A DNA stretch of 64,000 nucleotides from Chondrosia reniformis (taxonomy: Eukaryota > Porifera > Demospongiae > Chondrillida > Chondrillidae): positions 808,501 through 872,500 of the forward strand of contig OX359200.1 in the NCBI GenBank assembly GCA_947172415.1, read 5' to 3'. Position numbers and translations under genes: made by a program. The stretch's first letter is position 1. Each line of letters starts with the position of its first letter. The notes beneath the pieces were generated by a model, which did not search any database, was not told the DNA's origin, and saw only the letters and a program-made list of their open reading frames with translations. Below, piece by piece: positions 12,418 to 48,000 of this stretch.

Positions 12418-12554
12418 CTCGACTTATTGTTCAGCCAAAACGTTTTTAATCAGAAAATCTCGTCTAGTATAACGACGCACACAGAAATCCTTTGGTCATG
12501 TGACAGTATGTAATGTTACATCATTGGAGGCATGCCTGAAGGGAAAGCCCCGGA
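12418..12554. promoter_or_regulatory. Shared divergent promoter region, VPS4 / PDF
   Basis: 137 bp between the two start codons on opposite strands; inference from layout, no core motifs assigned. Confidence 0.55.
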
Positions 12555-13190
12555 ATGAATTCTCTGCGAAGCGTGTGGAATTTGTTTAAGCCAAAGCAAC
12601 GAATAGAACTGCTTCTCTGTCAAACTGGAAATCAGGTTCTAAGACAATCTGCGAACCCTGTGAACCCAAAGACCGTAACCACTCCAGAATGTCAGGAGCT
12701 AATGGATAGAATGGTAGAGATGATGCGTAAGACGATGGCAGTCGGGTTGGCAGCCCCTCAAGTGGGAGTGAGTCTAAGGATCATTTGTATGGAATGCACG
12801 CAGAATCACTTGAAAATTATGGGACCGGAGCGGGCAAAAATGCGCGAAATGACTGAACTTCCTCTTGTTGTATTGGCTAATCCAGTTTTGCAGATTATCA
12901 ACCAGGAACAGATTGTGTATGAAGAAGGTTGTCTCAGCGTGGCAGGGTACATGGCTAAGGTGCCTCGTGCTCGACAGGTGAAACTGAGTGGTCTAAATCG
13001 AGATGGCATTGAAGAGTTGCATATGTTGGATGGTTGGTCAGCAAGGATTGCACAACATGAGATGGATCACCTTGATGGTGTATTGTATATAGATAAGATG
13101 GTTCCCAAAACATTGCAACATGTCCTTTATAGTGATCACATTGGATTTGGAGAGGATATTAAGAAATATGAGAAAATGCTCAAAGCATAA
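12555..13190 (+). CDS. PDF: Peptide deformylase (mitochondrial type), single exon
   Basis: Removes the N-formyl group from new organellar proteins. The 211-residue single-exon protein has all three family motifs: GLAAPQVG (64-71), EGCLS (124-128, metal ligand C126) and QHEMDH (167-172, ligands H168 and H172, catalytic E169). The N-terminal about 20 residues are basic and hydroxylated (SLRSVWNLFKPKQR), consistent with a mitochondrial targeting sequence. Intronless, unlike its neighbours. The 3' part from 12893 onward is duplicated at 21475-21772. Confidence 0.94.
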   Translation: MNSLRSVWNLFKPKQRIELLLCQTGNQVLRQSANPVNPKTVTTPECQELMDRMVEMMRKTMAVGLAAPQVGVSLRIICMECTQNHLKIMGPERAKMREMTELPLVVLANPVLQIINQEQIVYEEGCLSVAGYMAKVPRARQVKLSGLNRDGIEELHMLDGWSARIAQHEMDHLDGVLYIDKMVPKTLQHVLYSDHIGFGEDIKKYEKMLKA

Positions 13191-13940
13191 CAGCAGGATG
13201 TTAATCACATTCATTGTATTGTTTATAAAGCAAAATTTGTTATTTAACAGCTATTGATCATTATGTCTGGATAGTTACTCAAAAAGAGGCACTAAGGGTC
13301 TGTTCTCCTTCAAGCCTTTGGCTAAACAGGACAGGGCGGTAGTTGCTCCTAAAAGTGGGGGCAGGGGTTCCATCTTTCATGGAACTGTGTGGCAATATAC
13401 CACTACACTACTACTGAATTTGTTGAAAAGTCTCATTAGAGGAGGCTGGGCTATAGGCTTCAGAATGAGGGGGTAAACCCCTGCTCTTCAGAGTCAAAAT
13501 TAAATGTTTGTTTATTGACCAATTCAGAATATACATTTATGGGGAGATGGATTGGATTGATATTTGTTTAATTCTCTGTTCCACAAAATATCCTTTTGAT
13601 TCACAGTTAATGATGATGGTATAACTACCCCTGATGAACCAACTTTTAAATATAGAAATTTATAAAATCAAAACTTATTCATGAAGTATAATAATTATGT
13701 ATATATTTCACATGCACCCATGCGCTATACTGCATGACATGTATATACTTCATTCCATTTCCTTGAGATTAAGATGAGATATTTCACTATATAGTATATA
13801 GTATCAGCTTCCTCGAATCAAGTAACTATTAATTGATCATGAAAAAAATTGCTATGTAACTGTTGTGTGCTCCATTTATGCAACACACACACACACACTA
13901 TTCAGCATTTCACTCTATCTAGTAGATAATTTGATGCAGT
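13191..13940. other. Non-coding between PDF and beta-lactamase-like gene A
   Basis: Convergent 3' flanks; a short (AC)n run at about 13885-13898. No gene recognised. The same stretch recurs, slightly diverged, after 21773. Confidence 0.6.
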
Positions 13941-16900
13941 TTATTTTCTTGTAAAGTCGATCCCATACAGAAATCCAGGCGCGTTCACTACGGTGTAGAC
14001 ATTATCCTTCATTTTGGAAAACATTACCCATTCACCCGTCAAACCAAGCAGCTCTTCTACAATACAGGGGGCCAAACTAGACGGGGACCACATAGCCATT
14101 ACTCCCTCCTTGTAGTATACAAGGTATGTGTTAAATGATATCGGTAACTTTAGAACCAGAAGTTCCTTTGAATAGGGGTCCTGCTGAACTGAGATGTGGA
14201 TTGTTCCCGAGCTGTCCACATATTCCCCAATGTATGGATTGAAAGATGGAGGAATAGGTATCTATATGAAATAGAATATAGTAGAGGTTATAGTATATAA
14301 CTTTAAGAGTTTACATATAATCTGTCTTAATTTACTGGTGGGCCAAGGAGCTTTAGGGCGTTCACGAAACCTGGTATAATGATATTGTAGATGTCTGATC
14401 CACCGGAGAATTCATCAAAGCTACCACTGAAGAGCATATTCAGCCCTGGCAACAAAATGGGAACAGTAAACATGAATACATGAATAAAGTGATAATGAAA
14501 CCACAACTGTTAAATCTTACTGTTCCACGAACTGTTTATTGGAGGAAAAACAAAAAAAGAAGAAATGCTGTGAATTAACTAAATATTGGACAAACCTAAT
14601 CTGAGATTTGGGATGAAAGCAAATAGAGCTGAGTATCCATCAACATTTCCACCTTTTCGCAAAATGAAGTAATTAAGCTGAGTTCTAATTTCAAAGGGAG
14701 TTCCAAATTGAGTCAAACCATCAGCATTCCAAAATACTAAAAAAAACCAAAAAATCCACAATTTAGCTTCAAACTGACTACTCATGTTTCTAGAGGATTA
14801 TATGATAAAAGTGAAAACAGTTGAATATCTGACTTTTAAATAATTAGCACTGTATTAGATTTTAAGTATGTAGAAACATATAATAGAGTAGAATATTCAT
14901 GAACATACAGTGATTTTATTGATGCTCAATGACTATATAGTATTAGCATGCCAGTTAATTATATATGTCTCAAGTAATATGGAGGTGGGAGGGTCTTACA
15001 GGTGGAGGACAAGACTCACCTGGTTGGCTCATAGTCTTTCTCAGTTCCCTTGTAAGAACACTATCATAGTTGGAGGGGTATTTCCCTGCCTGAGGTAGGT
15101 ACTCAAAATGAAATGCATCAATGAAAAATGCAGCCAGCTAGAAAAAAATAAAAAGATAGGCTGGCTGGATGTCTACAACTAATGGTCAGTTTATGTAGTG
15201 CGACTTTGAAACTCAATTATAGTGGTCTTTTTAAGCAAGTCCCCCTCCTAGAGAGGTGACCATCCTAAAGAGGTGACCATCCTAGAGAGGCGGCCATCCT
15301 AGAAAGGCGACCATCCTAGAGAGGTGACCATCCTAGAGAGGCGACCATCCTAGAGAGGTGACCATCCTAGAGAGGTGACCCTTCTAGAGAGGTGACCATC
15401 CTAGAGAGGTGACCCTCCTAGAGAGGTGACCCTCCTAGAGAGTGGCCCTCCTAGAGAGGTGACCATCCTAGAGAGGTGACCATCCTAGAGAGGTGACCAT
15501 TTATATAGATTACATTGTATATATTTAATTAATAAATAAAATGAATGTAACAATAATTCTAGCACTCATAGCATCAGACTGATCACCAAGAGGCCCCAAG
15601 CCACTGCTGGCCCAATCATGCCAAAGATGACAGCCATATTCCCCCATTACTCCACCACAGAGTAGTCCCTGGAGGAGGTACTAGTGAGTGTGCACTTGGC
15701 TCCCCAGGTCACCTGTTGAATTAATTAACCTGAAACGTTTCTGAGTGGCTAGGTTCTTGCATTCTTTTGATCAATAAGGAGACTCCACTAGCCAAAATCG
15801 TTAGACAGATTGGGTTGAAACGTTTGAATTATTTGACAATAGCATCTTTCTAACGATTTTGGCTAGTGGAGTTTACTTATTGATCAAAAAAATAATCTTA
15901 ATCTGCCTTACTTTGTCCAGATCGCTAGTGGTGGAGTACATTTGACCACATGGACTGTTCCACCCTAAATCATATAAAATAGCCTTAGATCCATCGGGCA
16001 TGTATCCAACTGCCATCTCCTTCTGGATGCTACAGATGAGCATGGAATGGTGAAGAGGAGCATGGAATGGTGAAGAGGAGCATGGAATGGTGAAGAGGAG
16101 CATGGAATGGTGAAGAGGAGCATGGAATGGTGAAGAGGAGTATGAAATGGTGAAGAGGAGCATGAAATGGTGAAGAGGAGCATGAAATGGTGAAGAGGAG
16201 CATGAAATGGTGAAGAGGAGCATGAAATGGTGAAGAGGAGCATGAAATGGTGAAGAGGAGCATGAAATGGTGAAGAGGAGCATGAAATGGTGAAGAGGAG
16301 TATGGAATGGTGAAGAGGAGCATGGAATGGTGAAGAGGAGTATGGAATAGTAAAGAGGAGCATGAAATGGTGAAGAGGAGTATGAAATGGTGAAGAGGAG
16401 TATGAAATGGTGAATCAGGATTGTTTACTCAATGCATATTGAAGAAACTCACTCTGAGGTTATATTGAATCCAGTTTTGGTCATGTTGAGAGGTGTTAGA
16501 ATGTACTGCTGAACATACTGCTCGTAGGTCATACCTGGATAGAATTTTTCCACCAGTAGTCTTCCCAAAAGTGAAAAGGCTAAATTACTAAAAACAAAAA
16601 ATGTGTTCAACTGTTTAAATATTCAATTGTATACACATTTCTCACACTAACTATAAAGACATGTACATTCTAAGAATAATCAAGGCTACCTTTGATTTCT
16701 TCTAACTGCACCAAACTTATCTTTAGGATGGTTCATCTTTCCCATGCAGGAGATTTAGTAACTGAAGAAGATTCCCATGCAGGGATGAAATATCCAGCTT
16801 CTTAAGAAACCAAACTGCATATTTAGACGTTCAAAAGACTAAAGAAGAACCATCACAAAGATATGTTTGGGGCAGTTAGAAGAAATCCTCATCATCTAGT

Positions 16901-20203: not shown

Positions 20204-21470
20204 ATGGTGCTACTGTAGCACTGGTGATTGTGTAATGGTTATCACTATAGATACCAAAGTTTTACTGCTCAAAAGTGCTTGGATGAAATTCTGAACATTC
20301 AACTGAAGGATAGTTCTGGCGGTGGAGGAGAAACTAGAGAGAGTGTAGTTAGCAGACAGGCTGCAGAGATGCTGGAGAAGCTGCCACCAGATTATATACC
20401 TCACGAGGTAAGTAGTGCAAGCTATCTTGGGCTGAATTGCATACTTCCCAAAATGGAGTCTACAGCTGATATCCTCTACATATACACATATATACGTATT
20501 GGTTGTGTGGTATGTCTGTCCAACCTCATTGTTCTGATGATCCTTAGGTCAAAGCTAGATTAAAAGAGATGAATGCGCTGGCCCCAATGAATATCTTCTT
20601 ACGCCAGGAGATTGATCGTATGGAGCGTGTGATCACTGTTGTCAGAAGCACTCTACAAGATCTACAGCTTGCCATTGATGGTACCATCATCATGAGTGAG
20701 GTAACAGATTGTGTGATTAAATTATGATACCTTCTTGATAGAAGAATGTTTGTTTAATTTTTGTACATTCATTAATTATTTCTGAAACAAATTGGTGTTG
20801 TCACAGTGACTCCTGTAGTCATAGCTACTCCTGTACATAGCCAATGGTTGTTCTTGTAATTATACGTAGTTACCCTTGTGGTCATTATTACGCTTGTATT
20901 CACTGTTTTCTTGAGTCATGACAACTTTGTAACCATAGTTACCCCTTTTTGTACTATAATAATACATTTCTTCTTTTCATAGAATTTGAGAACAATTTTA
21001 GATTCTATCTATGATGCTCGTGTTCCTCCACTCTGGAGGAAGGTGTCCTGGGACTCCACAACTATCGGTTTCTGGTACACTGAGCTGTTGGAGAGAGACA
21101 CCCAATTCAGAACCTGGGTATTCCAAGGAAGACCCAAAGTGTTCTGGATGACTGGATTCTTCAATCCACAAGGTTTCCTCACAGCTATGAGACAAGTAAG
21201 TATTGCCTGATTGAGATAGAGAATGGAGTTATGTATATATGTAGTTCATTCTGCTGGTAGAGAGAGGAATAGTTAATTCTACCTGGTGGAGAGATAGGGT
21301 GAGATTTTTGTAATCCATCTTGTCTGTAGGAAGTGACCAGAGCTCATAAGGGATGGGCATTGGACAGTGTCACTGTCTATAATGAGATCACTAAGATGAT
21401 GAAGGACGATATAGACACTCCTCCACTTGAAGGTGTCTATGTGCATGGCCTCTATCTTGATGTCCAGTCT
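20204..21470 (+). pseudogene. Dynein heavy chain C-terminal fragment (DNAH5/8 type)
   Basis: Four exons in phase: 20251-20407, 20548-20700, 20983-21195, 21330-about 21462. They encode part of the C-terminal domain of an axonemal outer-arm dynein heavy chain. Motifs include [55 protein letters not shown] and [18 protein letters not shown]. Homology stops at GLYLDV; the next bases are the deformylase copy. No start, motor domain or natural end, so it cannot make a dynein. No stop or frameshift inside the exons, which suggests a recent capture. The dynein gene starting at 55761 is the same class and may be the source; its 3' end is outside the window. Confidence 0.9.
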
Positions 21471-21474
21471 TGCG

Positions 21475-21772
21475 GATTATCAACCAGGAACAGATTGTAT
21501 ATGAAGAAGGTTGCCTCAGCATGGCAGGGTACATGGCTAAGGTGCCTCGTGCTCGACAGGTGAAACTGAGTGGTCTAAATCGAGATGGCATTGAAGAGTT
21601 TCATATGTTGGATGGTTGGTCGGCAAGGATTGCACAACATGAGATGGATCACCTTGATGGTGTATTGTATATAGATAAGATGGTTCCCAAAACATTGCAA
21701 CATGTCCTTTATAGTGATCACATTGGATTTGGAGAAGATATTAAGAAATATGAGAAAATGCTCAAAGCATAA
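21475..21772 (+). pseudogene. Truncated peptide deformylase copy
   Basis: Encodes the last about 100 residues of the deformylase almost unchanged, with EGCLS and QHEMDHLDG but without GLAAPQVG and the N-terminal half. An ATG at 21470 happens to be in frame, so a 100-residue product is possible but would lack motif 1. It lies directly after the dynein fragment, out of frame with it. Treated as a duplication by-product. Confidence 0.88.
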
Positions 21773-22498
21773 CAGCAGGATGTTAATCACATTCATTGTA
21801 TTGTTTATAAAGCAAAGTTTGTTATTTAACAGCTATTGATCATTATGTCTGGATAGTTACTCAAAAAGAGTAAGACTAAGGGTCTGCTCTCCTTCAAGCA
21901 TTTGGCTAAACAGGACAGGGTGGTAGTCGCTCCTAAAGTGGGGGCAGGGGTTCCATCTTTCATGGAACTGTGTGGCAATATACCACTACACTACTACTGA
22001 ATTTGTTGAAAAGTCTCATTAGAGGGGGCTGGGCTATAAGCTTCAGAATGAGGGGGGTAAACCCCCAGCTCTTCAGAGCAAAAATTAAATGTTTGTTTAT
22101 TGACCAATTCAGAATATACATCTATGGGGAGATGTATTGGATTGATATTTGTTTAATTCTCTGTTCCTCAAAATATCCTTTTGATTCACGGTTAATGATG
22201 GCATATACCCTGATGAACCAACTTTTATATATAGAAATTTATAAAATCAAAACTTATTCATGCAGGATCATGAAGTATAATAATTATGTATATATTTCAC
22301 ATGAACCTGTGCACTACTGCATGACATGTATATACTTCATTCCATTTCCTTGAGAATAAGATGAGATATCTCACTATATAGTATATAGTATCAGCTTCCT
22401 CGAATCAAGTACTAGTAACTCATGAAAAATTGCTATGAAACTGTTATGTGCTCCATTTGTGCAACACACACACACACACAGGTATACACTATATATAA

Positions 22499-23600
22499 AG
22501 TTAAATAAAAACATTCAAAAATGAAATTAAAAGTAGGGATGGCACTATAACAGTGATTGGCACATCTAGAAAAAGTAACGAAACAAGAAAGTGATCATAT
22601 GGTAAGGCTAACATTGCAGAAGTGGCATACTGAAACTTAACTATACACATCACTTCTATGTTTGGGCGCATCATGGATATACTAGAAGTAGGGATCGATG
22701 CGCCCAAACATAGAAGTGATGTGTATAATTAAGTTTCAGTATGCTGCAATGTTAGCCTTACCATATGATCACTTTCTTGTTTCGTTACTTTTTCTAGATG
22801 TGCCAATCACTGTTATAGTGCCATCCCTACTTTTAACTTCATTTTTGAATGTTTTTATTTAACTTGTATTGCTCCTTTTTTCTTGTTAATATTTGTTTTG
22901 AAAGTTTTCTTGGCGAAAACTCGAAATAAAGTAGCAGAATAGACGATATAATAGAGAGCTCTAAATTAAAAATGGCGTCCGAAAAGCTCCCAAATTTGAT
23001 AAGATGTTTTCTACCGTTCTTTAACATTCAGTTTAGGATATTAAAGGGCCCATAATCGTTAAGAATACGACTGTATATAGCCCCTGCAAAGCGACTAAGA
23101 AATTCGATCGCGGGTAACGGCAGTACCACAAATATTACTCATTCGGGTTACTTATTTTATATACAGAGAATTTGAAACTTAATTAAAAAATGGCGTTCAA
23201 AGAGGCCCTAAATTTGGCACTTTCAAAAGTAACACGCTTCGGATGGAACGCGTTGAAATCTAGGGTAGCCTATTCCCTAATTCGGAAACATTCATGACGA
23301 TTTAGTATTTGTATGTACCTGCGTAAGTTCGCATGTTAGCGCTAGCTCATTTGAAAAAAGAAGAAAAAAATGAGGAATTGCAGAATTTGGCCTATTTCCG
23401 TTTAACCACTTTGCGAAGGTTGTAGAGCATCGTAACATGTTTTGGCGTTTAGAAAAGCATGCAAAAACGACTGCAAACACACGAATGCAACCAAAAATCT
23501 GAACGTTGTTGATTTATGAGGTGTTAATTGATAATACATTGAATAGGGCGGCCATGTTTTTTTTCGGCCATCCCTACTTATAGAGTACTACCGTACACTA
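22499..23600. mobile_element. Hairpin-headed dispersed repeat, copy 2
   Basis: Starts with a long inverted repeat: 22499-22680 is the complement of about 22690-22870 (arms about 180 bp, inner arms around GTTTGGGCGCATC). An AT-rich non-coding body follows, ending GGCCATCCCTACTTATAGAGTACT. Present only in duplication copy B, so it inserted after the duplication or was lost from A. Related to 9527-10285. Confidence 0.75.
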
Positions 23601-23666
23601 TGATAATGCATAGGACACACACACTATTCAGTATTTCCCACTAGATAATAGATAATTTGATGCAGT

Positions 23667-26600
23667 TTATTTTCTTGTAAAGTCAATCCCGTACAGCAAT
23701 CCAGGCATATTCACTACAGTGTAGACATTGTCCTTCATTTTGGAAAACATTACCCATTCCCCTGTCAAACCAAGCAGCTCTCCTACAATACAGGGGGTCG
23801 CAACAGATGGGTCCCACATAATCATTACTCCCTCCTTGTAGTATACAAGTAATATAAGTAATGTTTTATCTGATATAGGTAACTTTAGAAGCAGAAATTC
23901 CTGACTGGGCTGAATGGAGAGGTGGATTGTTCCTGAGCTGTCCACATATTCCCCAATGTAAGGATTGAAAGATGGAGGAATAGGTATCTATATGAAAAAG
24001 GATATAGTAGAGGTTATAGTAACGTTAAGTTTTCATTATAATCTGTCTTAATTTACTGGTGGGCCAAGGAACTTTAGGGCACTCATGAAACCAGGTATAA
24101 TGATATTGTAGATGTCTGATCCACTGGAAAATTCATCAAAGCTACCACTGAAGAGCATATTCAGCCCTGGCAACAAAATGGGAACAGTAAACATGAATAC
24201 ATGAATAAAGTGATAATGAAACCACAACTGTTAAATCTTATTGTTCCATGAACTGTTTATTGGAGGAAAAACAAAAAAAGAAGAAATATTGAGAATTAAC
24301 TAAATATTGGACAAACCTAATCTGAGATTTGGGATGAAAGCAAATAGAGCTGAGTATCCAGCAACATTTCCACCTTTTTGCAAAATGAAGTAAGTAAGTT
24401 GAGTTCTAACTTCAAAGGGAGTTCCAAATTGAGTTAAACCATCAGCATTCCAAAATACTAAAAAAAAACAAAAAATCCACAATTTAGCTTCAAATTGACT
24501 ACTCATGTTTCTAGAGGATTATATGCTAAAAGTGAAAACAATTGAATATCTGATCATGACTTTTAAATAATTAGCACTGTTTTAGATTTTAAGTATGTAG
24601 AAACATATAAGAGTAGAATATTCATGAACACACAGTGATTTTATTGATGCTCAATGACTTTATAGTATTAGCATGCCAGTTAATTATATATGTCTCAAGT
24701 AATATGGAGGTGGGAGGGTCTTACAGGTGGAGGACAAGACTCACCTGGTTGGCTCATAGCATGTCTCAGGTAATATGGAGGTGGGAGGGTCTTACAGGTG
24801 GAGGACAAGACTCACCTGGTTGGCTCATAGCATGTCTCACGTAATATGGAGGTGAGAGGGTCTTACAGGTGGAGGACAAGACTCACCTGGTTGGCTCATA
24901 GCATGTCTCACGTAATATGGAGGTGAGAGGGTCTTACAGGTGGAGGACAAGACTCACCTGGTTGGCTCATAGTCTTTCTCAGTTCCCTTGTAAGAACACT
25001 ATCATAGTTGGAGGGGTATTTCCCTGCCTGAGGTAGGTACTCAAAATGAAATGCATCAATGAAAAATGCAGCCAGCTAGAAAAAATAAAAAGATAGGCTG
25101 GCTGGATGTCTACAACTAATGGTCAGTTTATGTAGTGCAACTTTGAAACTCAATTATAGTGGTCTTTTTAAGCAAGTCCCCCTCCTAGAGAGGTGACCAT
25201 CCTAAAGAGGTGACCATCCTAGAGAGGCGGCCATCCTAGAAAGGCGACCATCCTAGAGAGGCGACCATCCTAGAGAGGCGACCATCCTAGAGAGGTGACC
25301 ATCCTAGAGAGGTGACCCTCCTAGAGAGGTGACCATCCTAGAGAGGTGACCCTCCTAGAGAGGTGACCCTCCTAGAGAGTGGCCCTCCTAGAGAGGTGAC
25401 CATCCTAGAGAGGTGACCATCCTAGAGAGGTGACCATTTATATAGATTACACTGTATATATTTAATTAATAAATAAAATGAATGTAACAATAATTCTAGC
25501 ACTCATAGCATCAGACTGATCACCAAGAGGCCCCAAGCCACTGCTGGCCCAATCATGCCAAAGATGACAGCCATATTCCCCCATTACTCCACCACAGAGT
25601 AGTCCCTGGAGGAGGTACTAGTGAGTGTGCACTTGGCTCCCCAGGTCACCTGTTGAATTAATTAACCTGAAACGTTTCTGAGTGGCTAGGTTCTTGCATT
25701 CTTTTGATCAATAAGGAGACTCCACTAGCCAAAATCGTTAGACAGATTGGGTTGAAACGTTTGAATTATTTGACAATAGCATCTTTCTAACGATTTTGGC
25801 TAGTGGAGTTTACTTATTGATCAAAAAAATAATCTTAATCTGCCTTACTTTGTCCAGATCGCTAGTGGTGGAGTACATTTGACCACATGGACTGTTCCAC
25901 CCCAAATCATATAAAATAGCCTTAGATCCATCGGGCATGTATCCAACTGCCATCTCCTTCTGGATGCTACAGATGAGCATGGAATGGTGAAGAGGAGCAT
26001 GGAATGGTGAAGATGAGCATGGAATGGTGAAGAGGAGCATGGAATGGTGAAGATGAGCATGGAATGGTGAAGAGGAGCATGGAATGGTGAAGATGAGCAT
26101 GGAATGGTGAAGAGGAGCATGGAATGGTGAAGATGAGCATGGAATGGTGAAGAGGAGCATGGAATGGTGAAGAGGAGCATGGAATGGTGAAGATGAGCAT
26201 GGAATGGTGAAGAGGAGCATGGAATGGTGAAGAGGAGCATGGAATGGTGAAGAGGAGCATGGAATGGTGAAGAGGAGCATGGAATGGTGAAGAGGAGCAT
26301 GGAATGGTGAAGAGGAGCATGGAATGGTGAAGAGGAGCATGGAATGGTGAAGAGGAGTATGAAATGGTGAAGAGGAGTATGAAATGGTGAAGAGGAGTAT
26401 GAAATGGTGAATCAGGATTGTTTACTCAATGCATATTGAAGAAACTCACTCTGAGGTTATATTGAATCCAGTTTTGGTCATGTTGAGAGGTGTTAGAATG
26501 TACTGCTGAACGTACTGCTCGTAGGTCATACCTGGATAGAATTTTTCCACCAGTAGTCTTCCCAAAAGTGAAAAGGCTAAATTACTAAAAACAAAAAATG

Positions 26601-35512: not shown

Positions 35513-38500
35513 ATGTCGGGTGGGATGTCGGCGATACTCCTTTATTGTTATCTAATTATTTTGGGAAGCTTTAGAGGTGAGTCATGGTAAGAGTCTAGTT
35601 CTGCTACGTACAGGTAGCTCTACACGCCCAGTTTCGTCTTCTTAAGCTTCCATATCAATTAGGACTATCATCTGATGGTGATAATTTGTAAACTGCAAAC
35701 TGTTTCCTCTAATGTGGTGTTGCTTTCTAAACTAGTTTAGTCTATAGTCTATATTTGTTCCGAAACTTGCATGCCTTATTAAATGGCGTACCAGCTTTTA
35801 TAGGTAAACAGGACTAGTCTATTATTATAGCGTTACCGCCATCCGTTGCGCATACAGTATACCAGATGTGATCAAACTAACTATATTCTCCGAAGTACAG
35901 CCTTATGTCATAGTGTGAATATATACGCTTAAAACCTTTGAGGCCGTTTCTCTGTATCCATTGCTCTACAGAACATGACGATCAAGGAATTCTCTATGTC
36001 TAAGTATTTTCCCCAATCACTAATTGGAATGTTCCTACGCATGCAATGTTGATACATACAGGTGTGTTTAGAAACAGAATTTCTTGTCACTGGAATCTTG
36101 TACTATCTTCTTAATAAAACAAACCTACCCACAACTGCTACCATCAGACACTCAACTAGTTAGCTAGTTTACAATGGTTTTGACTAGAGAGTTGAGTGTC
36201 TGATGGTGGCAGTAAATTTATCCATTTATCTTCTCATCTATTTTCATTTATAGTCGTTATCTTACAAGAATTTGAAGTTAAGTGTGAATTTGCCTCATAC
36301 AAATATAATCAAAGTTGTGTCCAGCAGTGTCCAGAAAGACTGATTGCTAATTCAGTCTCAAGAGTGTGTGAAAACTTGATTGAAGGTATTGAATTAATTA
36401 AAATGCATTTCTATAATTATAATTACAATATTTTCCATAGCCTAAATTGAAAATTGAAGGTATTCTCTGAATCTAATTACTAATAGTATTTCTCATGACT
36501 AACGCAAATTAAATTTCTATTCTATATATATATAGACAATTGCTTATCAGAGAATAAAGACAATTATACGATAAACTCAACCCATATTGAATCAGCCATG
36601 TTTACCATGTTGACTGCTGGAGTATGGCTGGCTACATTTCAAATCATGCCATGTAATTTGGGTATGCCAATCCCAAGTAGTGGAGTTCAGTGGCGTTTTT
36701 CTGTAGAACCAAAACAAAATAATAGTAATGTTTCTCTTTCAGTTGTTCCTGGTACCAAATCAACCCTCTTCCACGTCATAACAAGTGACGTGTTCAATCA
36801 AGGAGACTATGATTTCACTCTTACCATAAGAGCTCAAGGATCTTCCTATACCAATCTTGAGTTCAGGAGAGACATTAATCTCAGAATACTAGCCCCACCA
36901 GGTAGAAATAACCATGTAAAATTAATTACAAATTGGTCCCATATGTAACTCATTTGCAATTGTTCTCTGTGATAAATGTGGCTATTCTGAGACTGAGGTC
37001 TTACATAGAGAAATTTGGTACAAGTTGATATATAGTATGGATGTATATATAATACTTGTATTTGCATGCCTACATTGCAGGATGGTCTTATGTATAATAG
37101 AGATTTAAATGAGCCTCATGCAGCAATTGCTGATGAAGACCTCAAAGAAGACCTTCAAATTGACACAATTATGTTGATGAGGAATTTTTAAATCTCTTTA
37201 TTGATTATAATCTCAACAAACAACCCCTATCATATAATCTATATATATGGGATATCATTTAATGTAATATAATATATATATACTGTTGAATAGTTCCTTG
37301 CAGTGTTGGAAAATGTATGAATAATGGTACTTGTCAAGATGTGGCTATCGGTGATCACAGGATGTTTACTTGCCAGTGTGGGCCAGCCTGGAATGGATCA
37401 GTTTGTCAGATACCAGTATTGCATAATTGTACAGATTGTCCAGAATGTTGCACTAGTGGCTGTACCTGTATTGGAAAGTGTACTGATTGCAGCAGTTCCA
37501 CTCTCCCAACAGCAAGCCCATGTCCAAATGCAAGTATGCCATTAAACACACTGTAAAGCCATTCAATGAAGCCATTACCTATAAGTATGCATGTACAGCA
37601 TCTGATGAATGTAAATATACGGAGTTCAAATATTTGGGAGTTTTTCATATATATGTTCAAAGGACTAAACTACAAATATTTAGAGTAAAGGCCTATAGGG
37701 AACTAAACCTAGTGAGAGCTTTGGATGAGGATACAAGAGTTTTCTACTTATTCCCCACTGGACCAGACAGCTGTTTCTGGGAATTCCAACCTCATCATTG
37801 ACCCTGGGAATCTTTGTCTTTTTGGTTTTTTGTGAGGCCTTCATGCATGTACTGTTTCTGGTATAGTTTAAGCCAAAGCAATATAACCAATATGGGAACA
37901 TAGGATTAATAACCTAAAACACCATTTTCCTAGTTCAGCACCCGTTTGGGACCAAGGAAAGATTGATATGAAAAAATACATGTACAAATCAGAAAATGTT
38001 TGTGTCATAGCAACATAAGCAAGCACATTGCCAAATATAATTAAACAAAACATCAGGCAACTAAATAAAATTATAAGTAGGAATGTGTCAAGGTCTTTGT
38101 TGTGGGGTTCAGAAAGAAAAATGATTTTATATTATTTAGCCTCCAACAATCAGCAATAAATATTGTGAATCTGGGACATTTCACTCGTATCCATAGGTAT
38201 ATATGCATGGGTATAGCTGATGAACACATATATATATAGGTTGCATGAATGGTATATATGAATGTTCTTATGTATGTAAGCATATTTCTTCTATTTTAAA
38301 ATTTTGTTCATGTAGCCCCTGATTGTAAAATCATCATTGGAGCAAGTGTTGGTGGAGTAGCAGCGCTAGCTTTACTTGTTTTCGTTTCAATAATTATTAT
38401 TGTAATTGTCAGCAAGTGCAAACGATCCAAACAATGTCCATATACTACTGGATACACCAACAAGAAAAGGATTGGAAATCTGATGTTAGATGAAGGAAGC

Positions 38501-39506: not shown

Positions 39507-41425
39507 ATGTCTGACGATCCCTACGCAGGCAAAATCTTGTTATCTGTACGTTCGAAGATAAAACGAATTTTGGATAGTGAAGAAGAGTGGAGTGAATTTT
39601 TGAGTCATGCAATTGAAAACCCCATTCCTGAACGGTCTCCTATCCGCGAAGAAATTGTTACAGACATCAAGAATTACGTTGGAATCAAGAACCGAAGTCC
39701 GACTGAAAAAATGTTGAGCGAGTTAGGAATGCTGGGATACCGTCAGAGCGATTTGTTGCACTGGGCTAATATTGATGGACGATTCAAGCAAATAGCTGAT
39801 TTAATAGGTAACTATAAATTATAAAACGCATGTATTATGTATCTTATAATACAGTACTACATCATATATAAATGAATGGTTAATTACTTTCACTATATAT
39901 ACATGTCAGAAAACAGGGGAAAGTCCCTTCCTAATACACCCACTGGTGACCAAGAGACTTTCAAAGCTACAAATAGAGAGTTGCAGAGATTACATAGCTA
40001 CACTACTTCAGCACCTGGGAAATTCCCTAAGAGGTTCTCTATTGAAGAAGCTGGATCAGAGAATGGTGCGTTTGTTGCTGTTTCAGTTATGCTTCAAAAC
40101 TTGTATACCTATATTGCTTTTCTCTTTTATTTGATGTCAGAAATGTTGCATGTGTTTTAGAGTACTTTCTTATCTTTTCTCTAGAAATTGTGTCAGATAA
40201 TGAAAAGCCGTCACTACTTGATCTTCAGTTTGTGGTTGAATCAACTGCCATCTCTAAATCCAATGGAATATGCAGACGATTGGGAGTTAGCGAAGCTGTT
40301 CTAAATCAAGCTGAGATGACCTATCCATTGGCTGCAAGCAGTGCTTCTTTAGACAGATTCATGTACGCCCTGAAGGACTGGCATGATGGAAATGGAGTCC
40401 TGGATGGTAAACCAGTGCCAGTGACGTATAATTTGTTGTGTACAGCACTAGAAGAAAGCAGATGTAGAGAAGTATCTGATGATTTGAGGAAGAGACAATG
40501 TAAGTTTAGTTTATGTGTGCACATATTGCATCTGCCTTATTGTACTTATGAAAGATTCGTTACTATTTGTGAGAGGTATTGGAGAAGACAGGAGAACAGT
40601 GTATCAACGAAGGAGGACTGAAGAAATACAGTGTAGCACACCTTCAAAGTTGTTCAAACCAAATGAAGACTCTAAAGGTTAGCTGATGGATGAGCCTATA
40701 TGTTAGCAGTGTACTGTATTTGTCTGTATAGAGGCCGGGCTCAAATAAAGGCTGGGTCTCGTTTAGAGGCCGGGGGGTCAGCTGGGCTATTCTTAAATAG
40801 AAGCCGGGTTCGAATGAAAACTGGGCTCAAATTGAGGTCAAGTCAAAAATGACTGGAACGAAATAGAAGCCGGTGCTTCTATTCAGACAAATATGCGGTA
40901 TATGTATAAAGTGCAGGGCCAACGTTCTCTGCTGCAGCAATCTAGAATCTAATTATATAAAATGTGTACAATAGCTATTCAGAATTTGGGTCATTTTCAG
41001 CTGTTTCTTGTACAAGTGTACAGCAGCCTTAACAGCTTATATTATATATTCGTATGTATGCATATATATTATATAAATGTAGTTATATATACATTCTGCT
41101 AGTTACTACAGAGAAGGGACCAAAAGAAATCCAAACATTCTTAGAGGATATCAGAGAGGTTATGCTCAATTACTGCGATGTGAGAGAGATTTCTAACGAA
41201 CTTAGAAAGGATAACATAATTTCTGCTTCTCAGTATGACACGTTGAAAGCTTCTATCTCCCGTGATTTGGCCAATCAGGCACTGTATGACATCCTCTATG
41301 CTGACCCAAGCGAGAGGAAACTGAAGGCTACAGCTGAAGCCTTGGACAGGTGTACATGTCATGACAACAACCAAGGAATGGCAGACAAAATCAATAGATT
41401 TCTATCCAACCACAGCTACAAATAA
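39507..41425 (+). CDS. Triple death-fold adaptor-like protein
   Basis: Probable scaffold for homotypic death-fold interactions; pathway unknown. Exons: 39507-39807, 39910-40065, 40185-40499, 40576-40677, 41103-41425, all introns phase 1, 398 residues. Residues 1-100 are an N-terminal IRAK/Pelle-like death domain (SPTEKMLSELGMLGY..DLLHWANIDGRFKQIADLIG). Residues about 163-257 are a classical death domain (RRLGVSEAVLNQAEM..., LKDWHDGNG, NLLCTALEESRCREVSDDL). Residues about 292-398 are a further helical domain resembling a CARD (DVREISNELRKDNIIS..QYDTLK..LANQALYDIL). No kinase, TIR or membrane segment. Linker exon 2 has one APGKxPKxxSIEEA unit that is multiplied in the neighbour. The exon 4 acceptor is weak. 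Tandem paralogue of 42130-44770. The CARD call is tentative. Confidence 0.8.
40735..40895. repeat. Degenerate internal repeats (GAGGCCGGGCTCAAAT type)
   Basis: Several short, partly inverted copies of GAGGC(C)GGGCTCAAAT / GAAGCCGGGTTCGAAT within intron 4 of the death-domain gene. GGTTCGAAT resembles a tRNA B box, but no tRNA can be folded, so a SINE-like origin is only possible. Confidence 0.4.
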
Positions 41426-42129
41426 TCAAAGTGATAACCAAACCACAAGTAAATTCTTATTTCTCTTTTAAAAAACTACAGATATATACATTATGTAAGG
41501 TGAACCATGGACTGTACGTTTAGTCATATTATATATATATATACAAACTTTCACCCCAAACATTGCTAACACTTCATTCACTTTGTGGGCTGGCTGGATA
41601 GGTGTGCCTGGTAGCCTTAAGTGGCGATGGTAGACTCCCAGTCAGCTGGGCTGTACACCTGGGTAGGTGTGCCTGGTAGCCTTAAGTGGCGATGGCTTAT
41701 ACGTTCCCAGGTGCAGCCCTGTGCCCTGTAACCATGTCTGGTTGGTTTTTTGTTTGTTCATCTCTGTAAGCTATGGGCACAATAATAATAATAATATATA
41801 GCTCTATGTGTCATATTTCCTTCTGTAGGTCATGTTTGGGGCATCCAGGGGCATCATCATATGTGTTTCAATGAGACTATAGATTGTTCTTAATTAATTA
41901 GTTTTAATGTACTGGTAGTTATCATTTATTTCTTGCCCTATCAATTCATACATCTTGAAGTGCTTAATGATAGTTTAGATAGTCATTACACGGACCATTC
42001 GGTCTGCGGCATTGCACGTGATCCTTGAAACTAAAAATGGACGACCATGTACCGCTCAATTATGGTGATTTAGCATACGTATTTTGAAGTTCGAATCGCA
42101 TAGACTCTTCTTCTGTGAATGTATAAAGA
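41426..42129. other. Intergenic between the two death-domain genes
   Basis: Contains a 33-bp duplication (GTGCCTGGTAGCCTTAAGTG at about 41603 and 41668), AT-rich flanks, and the second gene's presumed promoter. No coding exon seen. Confidence 0.6.
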
Positions 42130-44770
42130 ATGTCTAATCCTTATTTAAACAAGCTTCCACTTGTTCTGCGCCCCGAGATAAGACGAATTCTGGACCATGA
42201 TGGCGAATGGAAGGAATTTGTGATCCATGCAATTGAACACCCAATTCCAAACGGGAATCCCATTAAGGAAGAAATTGTAGTTGAAATCGAAAATCATGTT
42301 GAAATTGAGAAGAAGAGTCCGACTGAAAAGATGTTGAAAGAGTTAGGAAGACTTGGATACCATCAGAGCGATTTGTTGCACTGGGCTAATATTGATGGAC
42401 GATTCAAGCAGATTGCTAATATTATAGGTATAGTCATCTGAAACATAATAGGACGCATGAATAATCTAAAACACCAATTTCCTATGGATATGGTTGACAA
42501 GTACGTATATGAGGCTCTAAAAATATTGAGTGGACATCCTCCTTGACTAATCCCTTAGAGGTTTGAATGAGGCTACAGTTACATATCAATTTTTTTACTT
42601 TTCCACTGGGCCAGATGGCTGTTTCTGGGAATTTTGCCCTTCATCAACGGCCCTGGGAGTCTCTGTCTTCCGCTGTTTAGTTCATACTGTTATAAGTGTC
42701 ATGTTACTTTAAATGTAGAGGAGAGAGGACGAAGGAGATCCCTCCCTAGCACACCAACGGGTAACCAAGAGAGATCCTTAATAGCTGCCAGTAGAGTGCT
42801 GCAGAGATCACAGTCATGCAGCTACAGTACTACAGCACCAGGGAAACCCCCTAAAATGGACAGTATTGAAGAAGCTGAAGTATCATCATCTCTAATAACA
42901 CCAGGGAAACCCCCTAAAGTGAACAGTATTGAAGAAGCTGAAGTATCATCATCTCTAATAACACCAGGGAAACCCCCTAAAGTGAACAGTATTGAAGAAG
43001 CTGAAGTATCATCATCTCTAATAACACCAGGGAAACCCCCTAAAATGGACAGTATTGAAGAAACTGTAAAGTTATTATCTCCAACTAGATCAGAGAACAG
43101 TGCGTTTCAACTGCTGCTACTGGGATTTACCATTTCACCGTGCATTCTATAGTTGTGTTCATTGTATAGGGTTTGCTAGCAAGCTAGGAGTATAAAACCC
43201 TGTTGTTTGTGCATGTTTAATATTCCACCGTATAGAAATATATCACACAGGGTTGTATTATAATGCATATAGCTGGTTCTCAAGAAATGTACATATAAGA
43301 TTATCAACTTTATCATACAGTAGTGAATGTGCTTAGCCCTGTTTACTGTTTTTAATGTTATATTTACAAACAATTTGTATATGTATTCTCAAAGGTGATA
43401 ATAAACCGAGAGAAGTCAGCCTGATTGGGGAAGGAGATACTAGAGAAGACCGGAAGATAGACACTCAACAAAGGAGGACTGAAGAAATGCAGAGTAGCAC
43501 ACCTTCAAAGTTGTTCAAACCAAATGAAGACTCTAAAGGTTAGCAGATGGATGAGTCTATGAATATGATTATTATAACAATACTGTAAAACCCTTAAAAT
43601 TCTAAAGGTTAGCAGATGGATGAGTCTATGAATATGATTAATATAACAATACTGTAAAACCCTTAAAATTCTAGATGGATGAATCTATGAATATGATTAA
43701 TATAACAATTGTTTCACAACACTTGACCTATTACATATACAATGTAGGTGTAATTGCCGAGCGCCTTAGTGCAAAATGTTAACTTTAGATTTACTACGAT
43801 ATTATTAATTAAAGGTTAGTGAGCTTCAGCAACAATGAATACTTTAGAAATGAACGCTTCAACTCAAAGGGGCATTCATCAGCAATTAAATAGGGAGAAA
43901 AAAACTTGTGTTTAAATTGATGATGGGTGAGAGGTGGTGAAGTTGCCTAATACTGTAAAACCCTTAATATTAGTGTGCCATTAATGTTAGCAAAATTAGC
44001 AATACGATATCATTCGCTAACATTTGTGGTCACTAAAATGTTTATTATTACATGTGTGCAGTAGTGTGGAGCAAGTATTTGCAACAAACGCTAAGTTTAA
44101 TGGACGCTAATAAGTCCTATACGGTAAAATGTTACGTTAACACAGTAACCTTTAATTCATTATGATTGCAATAAATACTCGTGTATATATATTATGTACT
44201 GTACATATGTATATATATGCCAAAGATCTTACTGAAAGTGGTGTTCCCAGAAGTGGTGGCAAACAGAGAGATGTTACATTGCTGAGAGTAAGAGGTAGTG
44301 GAGAAGACAGGAGGACTGAAGTTCGAAGGCGACAGACTGGAATAAAATGGAGTTCCACACCTGAAGGGATACAAGAGAAAGGTATGTACATATACAATTA
44401 GGGTTATATAGTACATGAGCAGAAGAAGAGAAAACTCCACTATCTTCATCCAAAGCTCTCTCCGGGTTTATTTCCCTATAGGCTTTAGGAAAATCATGTA
44501 TAGATTATTCATATGCAATTTATTTTTCATGCATGTGCTATCTATCCTTCTCTTCTGGTAGTTACAGAAGTGGGCCCTTCTGATGTTCAAAGTGACAGGA
44601 AAATGAAGATTACAAATGATACTTCAGAAATGTGCCAGAGCCAAGACAAAAACCAAAGGAATATGATCTACAGATTCCTACCAGGCTGGGGCTCTGTCTC
44701 AGTTGGACTTGTTTTATTTTTTTTTATTTTTGTTTCTTGTTTCTTGTTTCTTGTTCCTTTTATAAAGTAA
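42130..44770 (+). CDS. Death domain, repeat linker, C-terminal transmembrane protein
   Basis: Possible membrane-anchored death-fold adaptor; function unknown. Exons: 42130-42427, 42719-43099, 43395-43538, 44226-44381, 44562-44770, all introns phase 1, 395 residues. The N-terminal death domain (1-99) is closely related to the neighbour's (SPTEKMLKELGRLGYHQSDL, DGRFKQIANIIG). The linker contains four PGKPPK units, three followed by a full 21-residue (63-bp) spacing (SIEEAEVSSSLI). It then becomes charged, Arg/Lys-rich and phosphosite-like. The last about 25 residues form a strong hydrophobic segment ending in Lys (WGSVSVGLVLFFFIFVSCFL...FIK), i.e. a tail anchor with almost nothing beyond it. 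No signal peptide. The layout (death fold, Pro/Ser-rich linker, tail anchor) resembles MAVS, but with a death domain rather than a CARD; homology to MAVS is not shown. Confidence 0.83.
42836..43065 (+). repeat. 63-bp coding tandem repeat, about 3.7 copies
   Basis: In frame within exon 2 of the death-domain/TM gene. Unit encodes TPGKPPKxxSIEEAEVSSSLI. The neighbour gene has one diverged unit. Confidence 0.95.
43540..43720. repeat. Tandem repeat of about 68 bp, 2.5 copies, next to an exon end
   Basis: Unit TAAAGGTTAGCAGATGGATG..AATATGATTA; the first copy includes the 3' end and splice donor (TCTAAAGGTTAGC) of exon 3 of the death-domain/TM gene. Confidence 0.85.
43925..44160. repeat. Possible MITE in intron 3 of the death-domain/TM gene
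   Basis: Flanked by ACTGTAAAACCC at the left and a near-complement ACGGTAAAATG at the right, with repeated GCTAACATT/ATGTTAGC internal motifs. No coding. Confidence 0.35.
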
Positions 44771-45062: not shown

Positions 45063-48000
45063 TTATATCAATCTAGTGGGACAGTCGCCATAGAACATTT
45101 TAAGTTTTCGAGTGCACATTCTTCGCCTTCTTCTTCTTTGTAACTTTGAAACAAAGTACACGAGTACTATTACACTGACAATACCAAGCATTATCCAGTG
45201 ACTGGGATCAGAATGCACGGGAGATTCTGGGTGAAGAATTGCAACCTCTTTCAAACAACAACCATCCTATAATAAGAAACAATGTATAAAAATAGTAAAC
45301 ATTATTAAGATTTGTTTAAGAGTTATTGGATTGCCAATTTTCTGAAAGAAAACTTTAAAATATTACCAACGTTTTAACTAACTGCTCTACCCTTCTTCAG
45401 GGCAAAGATAGAAAAGTAAGTATGAAAAATCTAAGATACCATTTTCCTACATGCTATATGCCTATTCTGTAAAAAGAGCCTATAGGGGAACTAAACCTGA
45501 AGAGAGCTTTGGATGAAGATACAGGAGTCTTTTCTTCCTTCTTTTCCCTTCTTTCATCTTCTTCTCCACTGGGTCAGACAGTATAGTATACATAAAGTCA
45601 TAGCTTGTAGACATGCATATTATCAATGGCAGTCCATGAAAACGCCAGTTGAGAAACCTTCACTTTATTATAGAGATTATGTAGTTCAACAATAAGACAT
45701 ATATGTTACCTACAGTAAGTAATCTATACTTATTCACTATGTTAAGAAGACTTAGTGCATTAAGAAGGTTGGGATTTCCCCTACATACCTGCATTCCATC
45801 AGCTAGAAGGTTAAGTTGCTTGAAAGGTACACTACAAATACACAAAAAAGAATGGCCCTTAAATATTTTAAATTTAAAAAAGGAGGATTAACATTCAAAT
45901 TATTTATTTGCATTCTGCTATAATGAGAATTTCAGACCTGGTTGAGGTAATGTTCAGTGGCTTTGGCTTCACCCATGCGAGGTGGGGGCAGACGAGGGAC
46001 TTTATATGACCACTGGCATTTACTACTCTAGAGTAATGATACAGCAGGTTGTCTAAGGGAAGAAAGAAGTAATTATTATATATTACTGTCACTGAACAAA
46101 GAACGCTACAACAGATCAAATATTTATACATTTTAAGTAACAAAAAGCGTCCTGCAATTCACTTTGGTGAATGATTGAAATATTGAATTGGTACAAAAGT
46201 ATGTAAATAATTCTTTGTCAAAGACTTGATCAAATTCTGCTCCCAAAAGAAAAATGTTATTACTATCTTACAAATTACTGCCACCTATCTATAAGATTCT
46301 ATTATGAGTGGTATAAGTGCCTATATTGAGGCTGCTGATAAGGCACACAGAAACACTTTAAAGGGCCCATGACATGCACATTTTTGGCCAAAACTTTAGT
46401 ATACGTAGTTTATAAACTACCTACTTAACAATCTCTATGTACGTATGTATGCTTTATAGATTTTAGGTTTAAAGTGAAGAATTCCAATGTTTTAGCTACG
46501 AAAAATAGCCATTTTTATTAAACCGCCCACACATTCCAGTACCCTAGCAACATCTCAACTTACTCATTCTAGAAGGTTCTCTTCTCTTAATCTTTCTGAT
46601 GGAGTCTGAATAAGGAAAATCTGGCACCCGTCCAGTTGTGGCGTACAGCAGTAGTTTACCTAGCAGCCAATAACAATCTGTAAAAGACAAAATAAAGACA
46701 GTCATTCTTCTGAATCTCAATAAAACAATTCTGTTCAATATTCCAAAAAAGGAGAACCAAAAGCATATTAAACTATGCATATACCAACATACCTCTCTGT
46801 TGGTGGGCATTATCTAGACAGTTTGAGTCACCATAAACTACAATACGACCACCTCCTGGCACCTGATAGAGCCCGAGGATTGGTACATTTTTAACCAATG
46901 ACTTTTTGCCATGTAATATTTCCATTGCTACAAAGTCAGATAATCAAATATGATGCACAGTAGTAGATTACAGTTAGATTAATTTAGTATACCTTCATCA
47001 TTAAGGTTTACTGGAAGTTGAAAGCCAGCATTTGGAAATGACTGAATTCCCACTCCAGATCCAAAATAAACTGGAAATTGGAATCAAACATTCAAACATC
47101 TACATATGTAAAAACAATTTCTAAGCTAACCTGTCCTATCTCCAATGAGATATTCTCCACTTAACACTTCATCACTAAATAATAGGCAGTAATCATCATT
47201 ACCTGAAGTACCTTACAGTATGCTAAGTTAACTTGCAAGGACACATGTCGGAATGATCTCAAATTTGGTTGGACGCTTATAATTTTAGGAGCATGTGTAC
47301 TGTACCTGAAGGCAATGTTCCAGCTCTTCAGTAAATCATTTAATGCAGGAACATTAGCTCCACCAGTACTGGGCATCCACCACTGTCTTGTGTTCTCATC
47401 AAAAAACTTTATCTTCATCATGACTTCTGTGTTGTACCAGTCTGATATCACTATTAGGGAGAGTCCCTGCTTCTCAACATCGTTCTTTATTTTCTCAATT
47501 TCCTCTGTGGAATATTCGTCTTCACTATCAACAATCATAAGAGCCCCTGGACATAAGAAACCAGTAGTTATCATAAGAGCCCCTGGACATAAGAAACGAG
47601 TAGTTATCATAAGAGCCCCTGGACATAAGAAACCAGTAGTTATCATAAGAGCCCCTGGACATAAGAAACCAGTAGTTATCATAAGAGCCCCTGGACATAA
47701 GAAACCAGTAGTTATCATAAGAGCCCCCTGGACAATGATCATAAGAGCAAATTCTTACCATATTGAGTAGCATCGATGCAGGTGAATGGAGAACCATTCA
47801 CTTCAATGAAGTAACCCAGGTTTCTAATGGCTGTATACATGTCTTTGAAATTGGTATGAATATGATCTCCATTCCTACATATCAAAGGGGTGTGAACAAG
47901 GAGGTGTGACAGCCACAAAGAGGGTGTGAACAAGGAGGTGTGACAGCCACAAAGAGGGTGTGAACAAGGAGGTGTGACAGCCACAAAGAGGGTGTGAACA

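Follow-up and report, generated by a model that had tools for sequence, protein, structure and literature searches.

The locus at positions 42130-44770 of the 64,000-nucleotide stretch of Chondrosia reniformis DNA analysed here (contig OX359200.1; hereafter the window) raises the question of whether a sponge gene with the plan of MAVS, in which a death fold and a repeat linker are followed by a C-terminal membrane tail, is an adaptor of the RLR pathway or has acquired this plan in another way. The gene (gene B) is predicted to start with an ATG at 42130 and to end with a stop codon at 44770, and its five exons, separated by GT-AG introns that are all in phase 1 (four of four), encode a product of 395 amino acids. 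Exon 1 (42130-42427; this and all other exons of the locus lie on the forward strand) encodes residues 1-99, a six-helix N-terminal domain that resembles the death domain (DD) of IRAK4 by AlphaFold2, Foldseek and alignment to IRAK4. The linker starts in exon 2 (42719-43099), which contains a 21-residue repeat and four SIEE motifs, and continues in exon 3 (43395-43538), which is homologous to an exon of the upstream neighbour described below (exon A4, 40576-40677), and in exon 4 (44226-44381), which includes an additional diverged copy of the exon-3/A4 type of sequence. Exon 5 (44562-44770) begins with an apparent remnant of a CARD exon, comprising its 5' end, helix 5 and the larger part of helix 6, and then encodes the hydrophobic tail and the stop codon. 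The layout of DD fold, repeat linker and tail anchor proposed by the sequence-only reading thus stands as a gene model, and its coordinates hold.

The hexamers ATTAAA (45015) and AATAAA (45031) are present downstream of gene B. What appears by eye to be the last exon of MBTPS1 (45063-45266, minus strand), which contains a transmembrane (TM) segment, ends approximately 30 bp from this AATAAA; therefore, gene B and MBTPS1 (site-1 protease, identified by Pfam at 47164-47754, minus strand) converge. Two introns of gene B contain sequences that recur in the window: a dispersed repeat in intron 4 (44421-44484) is found on the other strand at 45477-45542 and 37688-37753, and a stretch of intron 1 (42591-42669) matches 37740-37820.

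The linker (residues 100-346) had been described as a Pro/Ser/Lys repeat. The repeat itself was found, as a 63-bp tandem repeat at 42836-43066 (3.7 copies) that encodes the 21-residue unit, but the composition is characterized just as much by Ser, Glu and Arg (S 14.6%, E 10.9%, R 9.3%, P 8.5%, T 8.1%, K 7.7%). A scan of the linker with the motif patterns of TRAF-binding sites and of pLxIS detected no TRAF6-type, pLxIS-like or PxQxxD pattern. SIEE, which we take to be a TRAF2-type motif pattern, was found four times, a number reached in 70 of 2000 shuffles, and all four are copies of one repeat. The same motif is also present once in exon 2 of the upstream paralogue.

The hydrophobic tail had been placed within about three residues of the C-terminus and in fact ends one residue before it. 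The best 19-residue hydropathy window of gene B (2.97) covers residues 376-394 of 395, while windows starting before residue 350 reach 0.08 at best, and a single Lys follows the tail. Human MAVS has a basic C-terminus. Among the 641 stop-to-stop ORFs of at least 40 amino acids across the window, only three, gene B included, have a tail with a hydropathy of at least 2.5 that ends within six residues of the stop codon. A single C-terminal transmembrane tail of the MAVS type is therefore predicted for gene B. The tail is encoded by a T-rich segment (44695-44769; 64% T compared with 21% in the rest of exon 5 and 29.6% in the window) that contains a (TTGTTTC)4.3 microsatellite at 44730-44759. All three reading frames of this DNA encode hydrophobic residues, so that the tail may have arisen recently by accident.

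The identification of the N-terminal domain as a death domain was borne out by structure prediction and by alignment to IRAK4, but not by sequence searches of Pfam and the PDB. AlphaFold2, with two sequences as input, yielded a six-helix model of low confidence (mean pLDDT 60, pTM 0.44). When this model was compared with the PDB by Foldseek, the first match was the DD of mouse IRAK4 (probability 0.92, E 0.38), followed by a second IRAK4 DD entry (0.72, E 1.2) and the DD of MALT1 (0.63, E 1.2). At E up to 10 there were 22 matches; seven belong to the death superfamily, including RIPK1, FAS/FADD and two with CARDs, and the remaining 15 are unrelated folds with probabilities of at most 0.06; E is below 0.001 in none of the 22. 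A six-helix fold of the death domain superfamily is thus seen in a low-confidence model of a domain with no Pfam match to that superfamily. In the Pfam searches (E up to 10), no death domain was detected in exon 1 of gene B, the best match being DUF5071 (E 0.0036, below the cut-off), and exon 1 of the paralogue had no match of any kind. Likewise, phmmer found no death domain among PDB sequences, and a profile of the two paralogues yielded one unrelated PDB match (E 0.066).

The score of the alignment to the human IRAK4 DD was reached by 12 of 2000 shuffles for gene B and 17 of 2000 for its paralogue and, in a repeat with 1000 shuffles, by 5 and 11, respectively. For the DDs of ankyrin-1, ankyrin-3, RIPK1 and FADD, 211 to 960 of 1000 shuffles were as good against one or the other paralogue (461 to 960 for exon 1 of gene B); IRAK4 is the only one of these five DDs whose match to gene B beats most shuffles. 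The IRAK4 and gene B domains also share an SPTxxxL stretch. A DD profile built from ankyrin-1, -2, -3, RIPK1 and FADD was searched against the 260 ORFs of at least 60 amino acids in the window, and the first three ranks, at low scores, were taken by the ORFs that contain exon 3 of the paralogue (5.7 bits), exon 1 of gene B (4.5 bits) and exon 5 of the paralogue (4.4 bits), the best ORF from elsewhere in the window reaching 3.7 bits; exon 1 of the paralogue was not recognized by this five-sequence profile (-0.7 bits; 220 of 500 shuffles as good). No relatives of the DD were found by tblastn in 600 pattern stretches of viral contigs or in 55 pattern stretches of genome contigs, results that carry little weight for an animal gene. 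This moderate evidence indicates that the N-terminal fold of gene B is probably a death domain of the IRAK4 kind. The plan of gene B may fairly be read as that of a death-domain protein anchored in a membrane.

The sequence-only reading had missed the key neighbour of gene B, a tandem paralogue with a predicted CARD, the exon of which is homologous to the tail-anchor exon. This paralogue (gene A) occupies 39507-41425, approximately 2.6 kb upstream of gene B (start to start), and is likewise predicted to consist of five exons, with every intron in phase 1, and to encode 395 amino acids. Exon 1 (39507-39807) encodes an IRAK4-like death domain, judged by alignment to IRAK4; exon 2 (39910-40065) is a linker exon homologous to exon 2 of gene B that lacks the repeat array; exon 3 (40185-40499) encodes a second, death-domain-like but unclassified module that is absent from gene B; exon 4 (40576-40677) encodes linker; and exon 5 (41112-41425) encodes a predicted CARD (by AlphaFold2 and Foldseek) and the stop codon. 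An alternative acceptor of exon 5, nine bases upstream, is possible and would match the acceptor of exon 5 of gene B. Gene A has no membrane segment (best hydropathy 0.76), and neither AATAAA nor ATTAAA is present between its stop codon and the start of gene B (41426-42129). Exon 3 of gene A is only tentatively death-domain-like: Pfam yielded nothing for it and the PDB search no death domain, it scores only 7.2 bits on its own against the five-sequence DD profile (5.7 bits as its ORF), and 38 to 542 of 1000 shuffles were as good against the five single DDs.

The collinear exon order and the phases of gene A speak for the joining of the TM exon to the DD exons in gene B. As all introns are in phase 1, splicing of gene A exons to gene B exons is also possible in principle. 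The DDs of the two genes are 64% identical, and dN is lower than dS in the DD exon (0.236 and 0.820, respectively), in exon 2 (0.225 and 0.467) and between exon 4 of gene A and exon 3 of gene B (0.115 and 0.205), in two-sequence comparisons that do not separate the branches of A and B. The coding indels seen in the locus (the 63-bp repeat unit, the phase 1-1 exons and the CARD deletion) all keep the frame. We consider it likely that gene B is a gene and that it descends from a duplication.

The divergence of the DD exons is uneven. Their DNA differs at only 12 of 111 positions in the C-terminal part (39696-39806 versus 42316-42426) but at 66 of 180 in the N-terminal part (Fisher p 6.7e-7), with dS values of 0.28 and 1.57, respectively. 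By this pattern, the C-terminal parts look partly homogenized in recent times, as by gene conversion, and their likeness is thus weak evidence for a shared interface between A and B.

The predicted CARD of gene A was examined in the same manner. AlphaFold2 modelled exon 5 from the single sequence with a pLDDT of 77.8 and a pTM of 0.67. Foldseek gave 115 matches at E up to 10, and the best 50 of these comprise 44 CARDs or CARD-bearing proteins, some of which are known to bear a CARD although their titles do not say so, two designs on an APAF-1 CARD template and four others. The matches listed include APAF-1, NLRC4, NOD1, RIP2, NLRP1 and RIG-I; the best E among them is 0.061 and none is below 0.001, while probabilities reach 1.00 and TMq values 0.70. 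The predicted structure of exon 5 therefore has a CARD fold. At the sequence level, the Pfam CARD match (E 0.082, 13.4 bits against a cut-off of 23.9) falls below the cut-off, as does SMG1_N, which ranks ahead of it (E 0.0012, 19.9 bits against a cut-off of 25), and the designed protein 6jcc, built on the APAF-1 CARD, was matched with E 0.7. Exon 5 of gene A is thus a predicted CARD with weak sequence-based support.

The relationship of this exon to the tail-anchor exon of gene B was first noticed by eye and tested afterwards. The first 45 residues of exon 5 of gene B align to exon 5 of gene A with a local score of 54, which none of 3000 shuffles reached, and among the 260 ORFs exon 5 of gene A ranks second, directly after the exon's own ORF and ahead of the exon-3 ORF of gene B (score 40). 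The exon starts also match (TEVGPSDVQ versus TEKGPKEIQ; 3 of 3000 shuffles as good). The codon alignment (30 codons) has 58 identical bases out of 90, with 9, 7 and 16 mismatches at the three codon positions (dN 0.365, dS 1.68). At the DNA level, the exon ends match less well than the proteins do: 46 of 2000 shuffles did as well as the match at the acceptor and 8 of 2000 as that at the 3' end. When projected onto the predicted helices of gene A, exon 5 of gene B retains helix 5 and most of helix 6, whereas most of helices 1-4 is missing in frame; soon after a shared RFL motif, the T-rich segment with the microsatellite begins. Judged by these alignments, the tail-anchor exon of gene B is homologous to the predicted CARD exon of gene A. 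Since insertion of a CARD core is less likely than its deletion, we infer that gene A is nearer to the ancestor. Gene B is a duplicate of a DD-CARD adaptor in which a tail anchor has probably taken the place of the CARD. Homology between the 3'UTR of gene A and the DNA beyond the stop codon of gene B, as would be expected had the tail been inserted ahead of an old stop codon, found no support (1385 of 3000 shuffles as good). The birth of membrane segments from thymine-rich DNA has been proposed previously (PMC7005711). As presented in the parts of that report drawn on here, the proposal resembles gene B in that a hydrophobic segment arises from T-rich sequence, but differs in that it concerns whole new yeast ORFs from non-genic DNA, whereas in gene B an old signalling gene would have been extended at its C-terminus.

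The proposed link to RLR signalling is not supported. The RLR gene of the window (3810-6093, forward strand; exon 1 at 3810-3816, exon 2 from 3887) encodes 737 amino acids with DEAD helicase, Helicase_C and RIG-I_C-RD matches. It had been described as having no CARD, and our model agrees: approximately 60 residues precede the helicase match, which leaves insufficient space for a CARD or a death fold, and neither domain is present. This argument from room matters because Pfam also misses the DDs of genes A and B. A hidden upstream death-domain exon was considered and rejected, as the upstream DNA is occupied by an SDR ORF (minus strand) and a prefoldin ORF. In having neither an N-terminal CARD nor an N-terminal death domain, this RLR resembles LGP2. 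In the sources cited here, as far as they were available, LGP2-like proteins are reported for Amphimedon (PMC8260672), in conflict with a report of two RLRs with N-terminal death domains in the same sponge (PMC8998645). The RLR gene lies approximately 36 kb from gene B, with AAA-ATPase and peptide deformylase ORFs in between, and its presence in the same window is no evidence of a common pathway. This intervening DNA also includes a repeated block (12540-16424 and 21461-26421): by eye, the peptide deformylase ORF (12540-13187, by Pfam) has its end repeated at 21461-21769, and both copies contain matching minus-strand ORFs, some of them simple-repeat. An ORF at 10814-11482 (minus strand) resembles, by eye, part of a retroelement reverse transcriptase and has no Pfam match at E 0.01.

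Gene B and vertebrate MAVS share an N-terminal domain of the death superfamily, a long low-complexity middle and a single C-terminal membrane tail. They differ in that MAVS, in the sections of the source cited, contains a CARD together with a proline-rich region (PMC5557890), whereas gene B has an IRAK4-like DD, a linker in which neither a TRAF6 nor a pLxIS-like pattern was found, and a single Lys behind the tail. What is left of its CARD exon corresponds approximately to helix 5 and the larger part of helix 6, and no N-terminal CARD of the MAVS type was found. Because it lacks the CARD that defines MAVS, gene B is MAVS-like in plan but not a member of the MAVS family, and its layout was probably reached independently.

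Gene B may function as a partner or decoy of gene A at a membrane; of these, we tentatively favour a partnership with gene A, which is possible but far from assured. Gene B is a tandem duplicate of gene A, which carries a DD, a death-domain-like module and a CARD. The alignments suggest that gene B lost the second module and, without a frameshift, most of CARD helices 1-4, that its linker grew longer, and that a membrane segment arose at its C-terminus within T-rich microsatellite DNA. Its product would be a cytosol-facing, tail-anchored death-domain protein. On the assumption that the DDs bind each other, the related IRAK4-like domains of A and B would co-assemble, and gene B would hold a DD-CARD oligomer of gene A at the membrane, where the CARD of A may recruit a CARD partner (a caspase or an NLR-type protein). 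Together, A and B would then carry a CARD, a death domain and an anchor, the parts that oyster MAVS carries in one chain.

A second reading holds that gene B is a decoy: by binding gene A, or a DD complex of the MyD88/IRAK type, it would sequester its partner at a membrane and act as a brake with no CARD output. This is consistent with the absence of the second module and of most of CARD helices 1-4 and with the lower dN than dS in the DD exon, but the long repeat linker with its four SIEE motifs could still recruit partners, and we regard this reading as somewhat unlikely. It also seems unlikely that gene B is simply a duplicate of recent origin, perhaps in decay, whose hydrophobic tail is accidental and whose function is unsettled. 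The position of the tail in T-rich microsatellite DNA (64% T against 29.6% in the window) and the large losses relative to gene A would fit such a history; against it, the frame is open across five exons, the indels keep it, and dN is below dS in both the DD exon and the CARD remnant, although the branches of A and B are not separable in this two-sequence comparison.

We know of no tail anchor in a Tube or IRAK protein, which bears on a reading that we likewise consider unlikely, namely that gene B is a kinase-less IRAK4/Tube-like membrane adaptor that acts in a Myddosome-like DD complex below TIR receptors, independently of gene A and of RLRs. The two best fold matches are IRAK4 DDs, IRAK4 alone among the five DDs tested is matched by exon 1 of gene B beyond most shuffles (5 of 1000 as good), and MyD88 and TRAF are reported for Amphimedon in the part of the source cited (PMC3517549). 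However, the similarity to the DD of IRAK4, which gives the best fold match and shares the SPTxxxL stretch, derives in part from a model of low confidence (pLDDT 60), and gene B differs in its lack of a kinase: Pfam detected neither a kinase match, a feature of IRAK, nor a TIR match in the 395-amino-acid model. Finally, although the layout of gene B and the possibility that death-domain-headed RLRs signal through a DD adaptor would suit a membrane adaptor of the RLR pathway, this is very improbable, given that the RLR of the window is too short at its N-terminus to include a death fold and lies approximately 36 kb away, the linker contains no TRAF6, pLxIS-like or PxQxxD pattern, the DD is IRAK4-like, and the anchor exon appears to be a reworked CARD exon, which makes the layout look secondary.

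Genes A and B may also be compared with a MAVS of another invertebrate. Oyster CgMAVS contains a CARD, a Death domain and a C-terminal TM in one protein, according to the portion of the report cited (PMC5557890), and the parts list of A plus B therefore has a precedent. The oyster protein is a single chain, whereas the CARD and the TM of the sponge locus are distributed over two tandem genes that share the DD. The more far-reaching proposal would be that of a split MAVS, in which tandem genes with a common IRAK4-like DD, one with the CARD and one with the tail anchor, together form a signalling platform of the oyster MAVS type at a membrane, the anchor having arisen de novo from T-rich microsatellite DNA at the end of the reduced CARD exon and the plan having been reached independently; we regard this as unlikely.

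A new death-domain gene in a sponge is in itself ordinary, given the large repertoires of these animals. In the sections of the reports cited here, 128 DEATH and 39 CARD genes are described for Dysidea avara (PMC12909245), and Amphimedon is described as having 357 TRADD-N proteins, the majority of whose architectural types contain one to three death-like domains (PMC8195603). The Amphimedon expansions resemble the present locus in being lineage-specific and in combining N-terminal death-like domains with variable, often fast-evolving C-termini, but those sections do not list a tail anchor as one of the C-termini (PMC8195603). No Pfam TRADD-N match was obtained for gene B or for exons 1, 3 and 5 of gene A. 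Among the matches listed in our search of the open-licence literature, we found neither a sponge adaptor described as combining a death domain with a tail anchor nor a CARD exon turned into a tail anchor beside a CARD-intact copy.

If the proposed history is true, a single locus would show how a soluble death-fold adaptor became membrane-anchored through exon loss and a tail derived from a simple repeat. It would also provide a test case for the view that anchored platforms of the MAVS type arose more than once, and a concrete candidate for a DD-CARD adaptor in an animal lineage for which the literature excerpts considered here yielded no report of MAVS.
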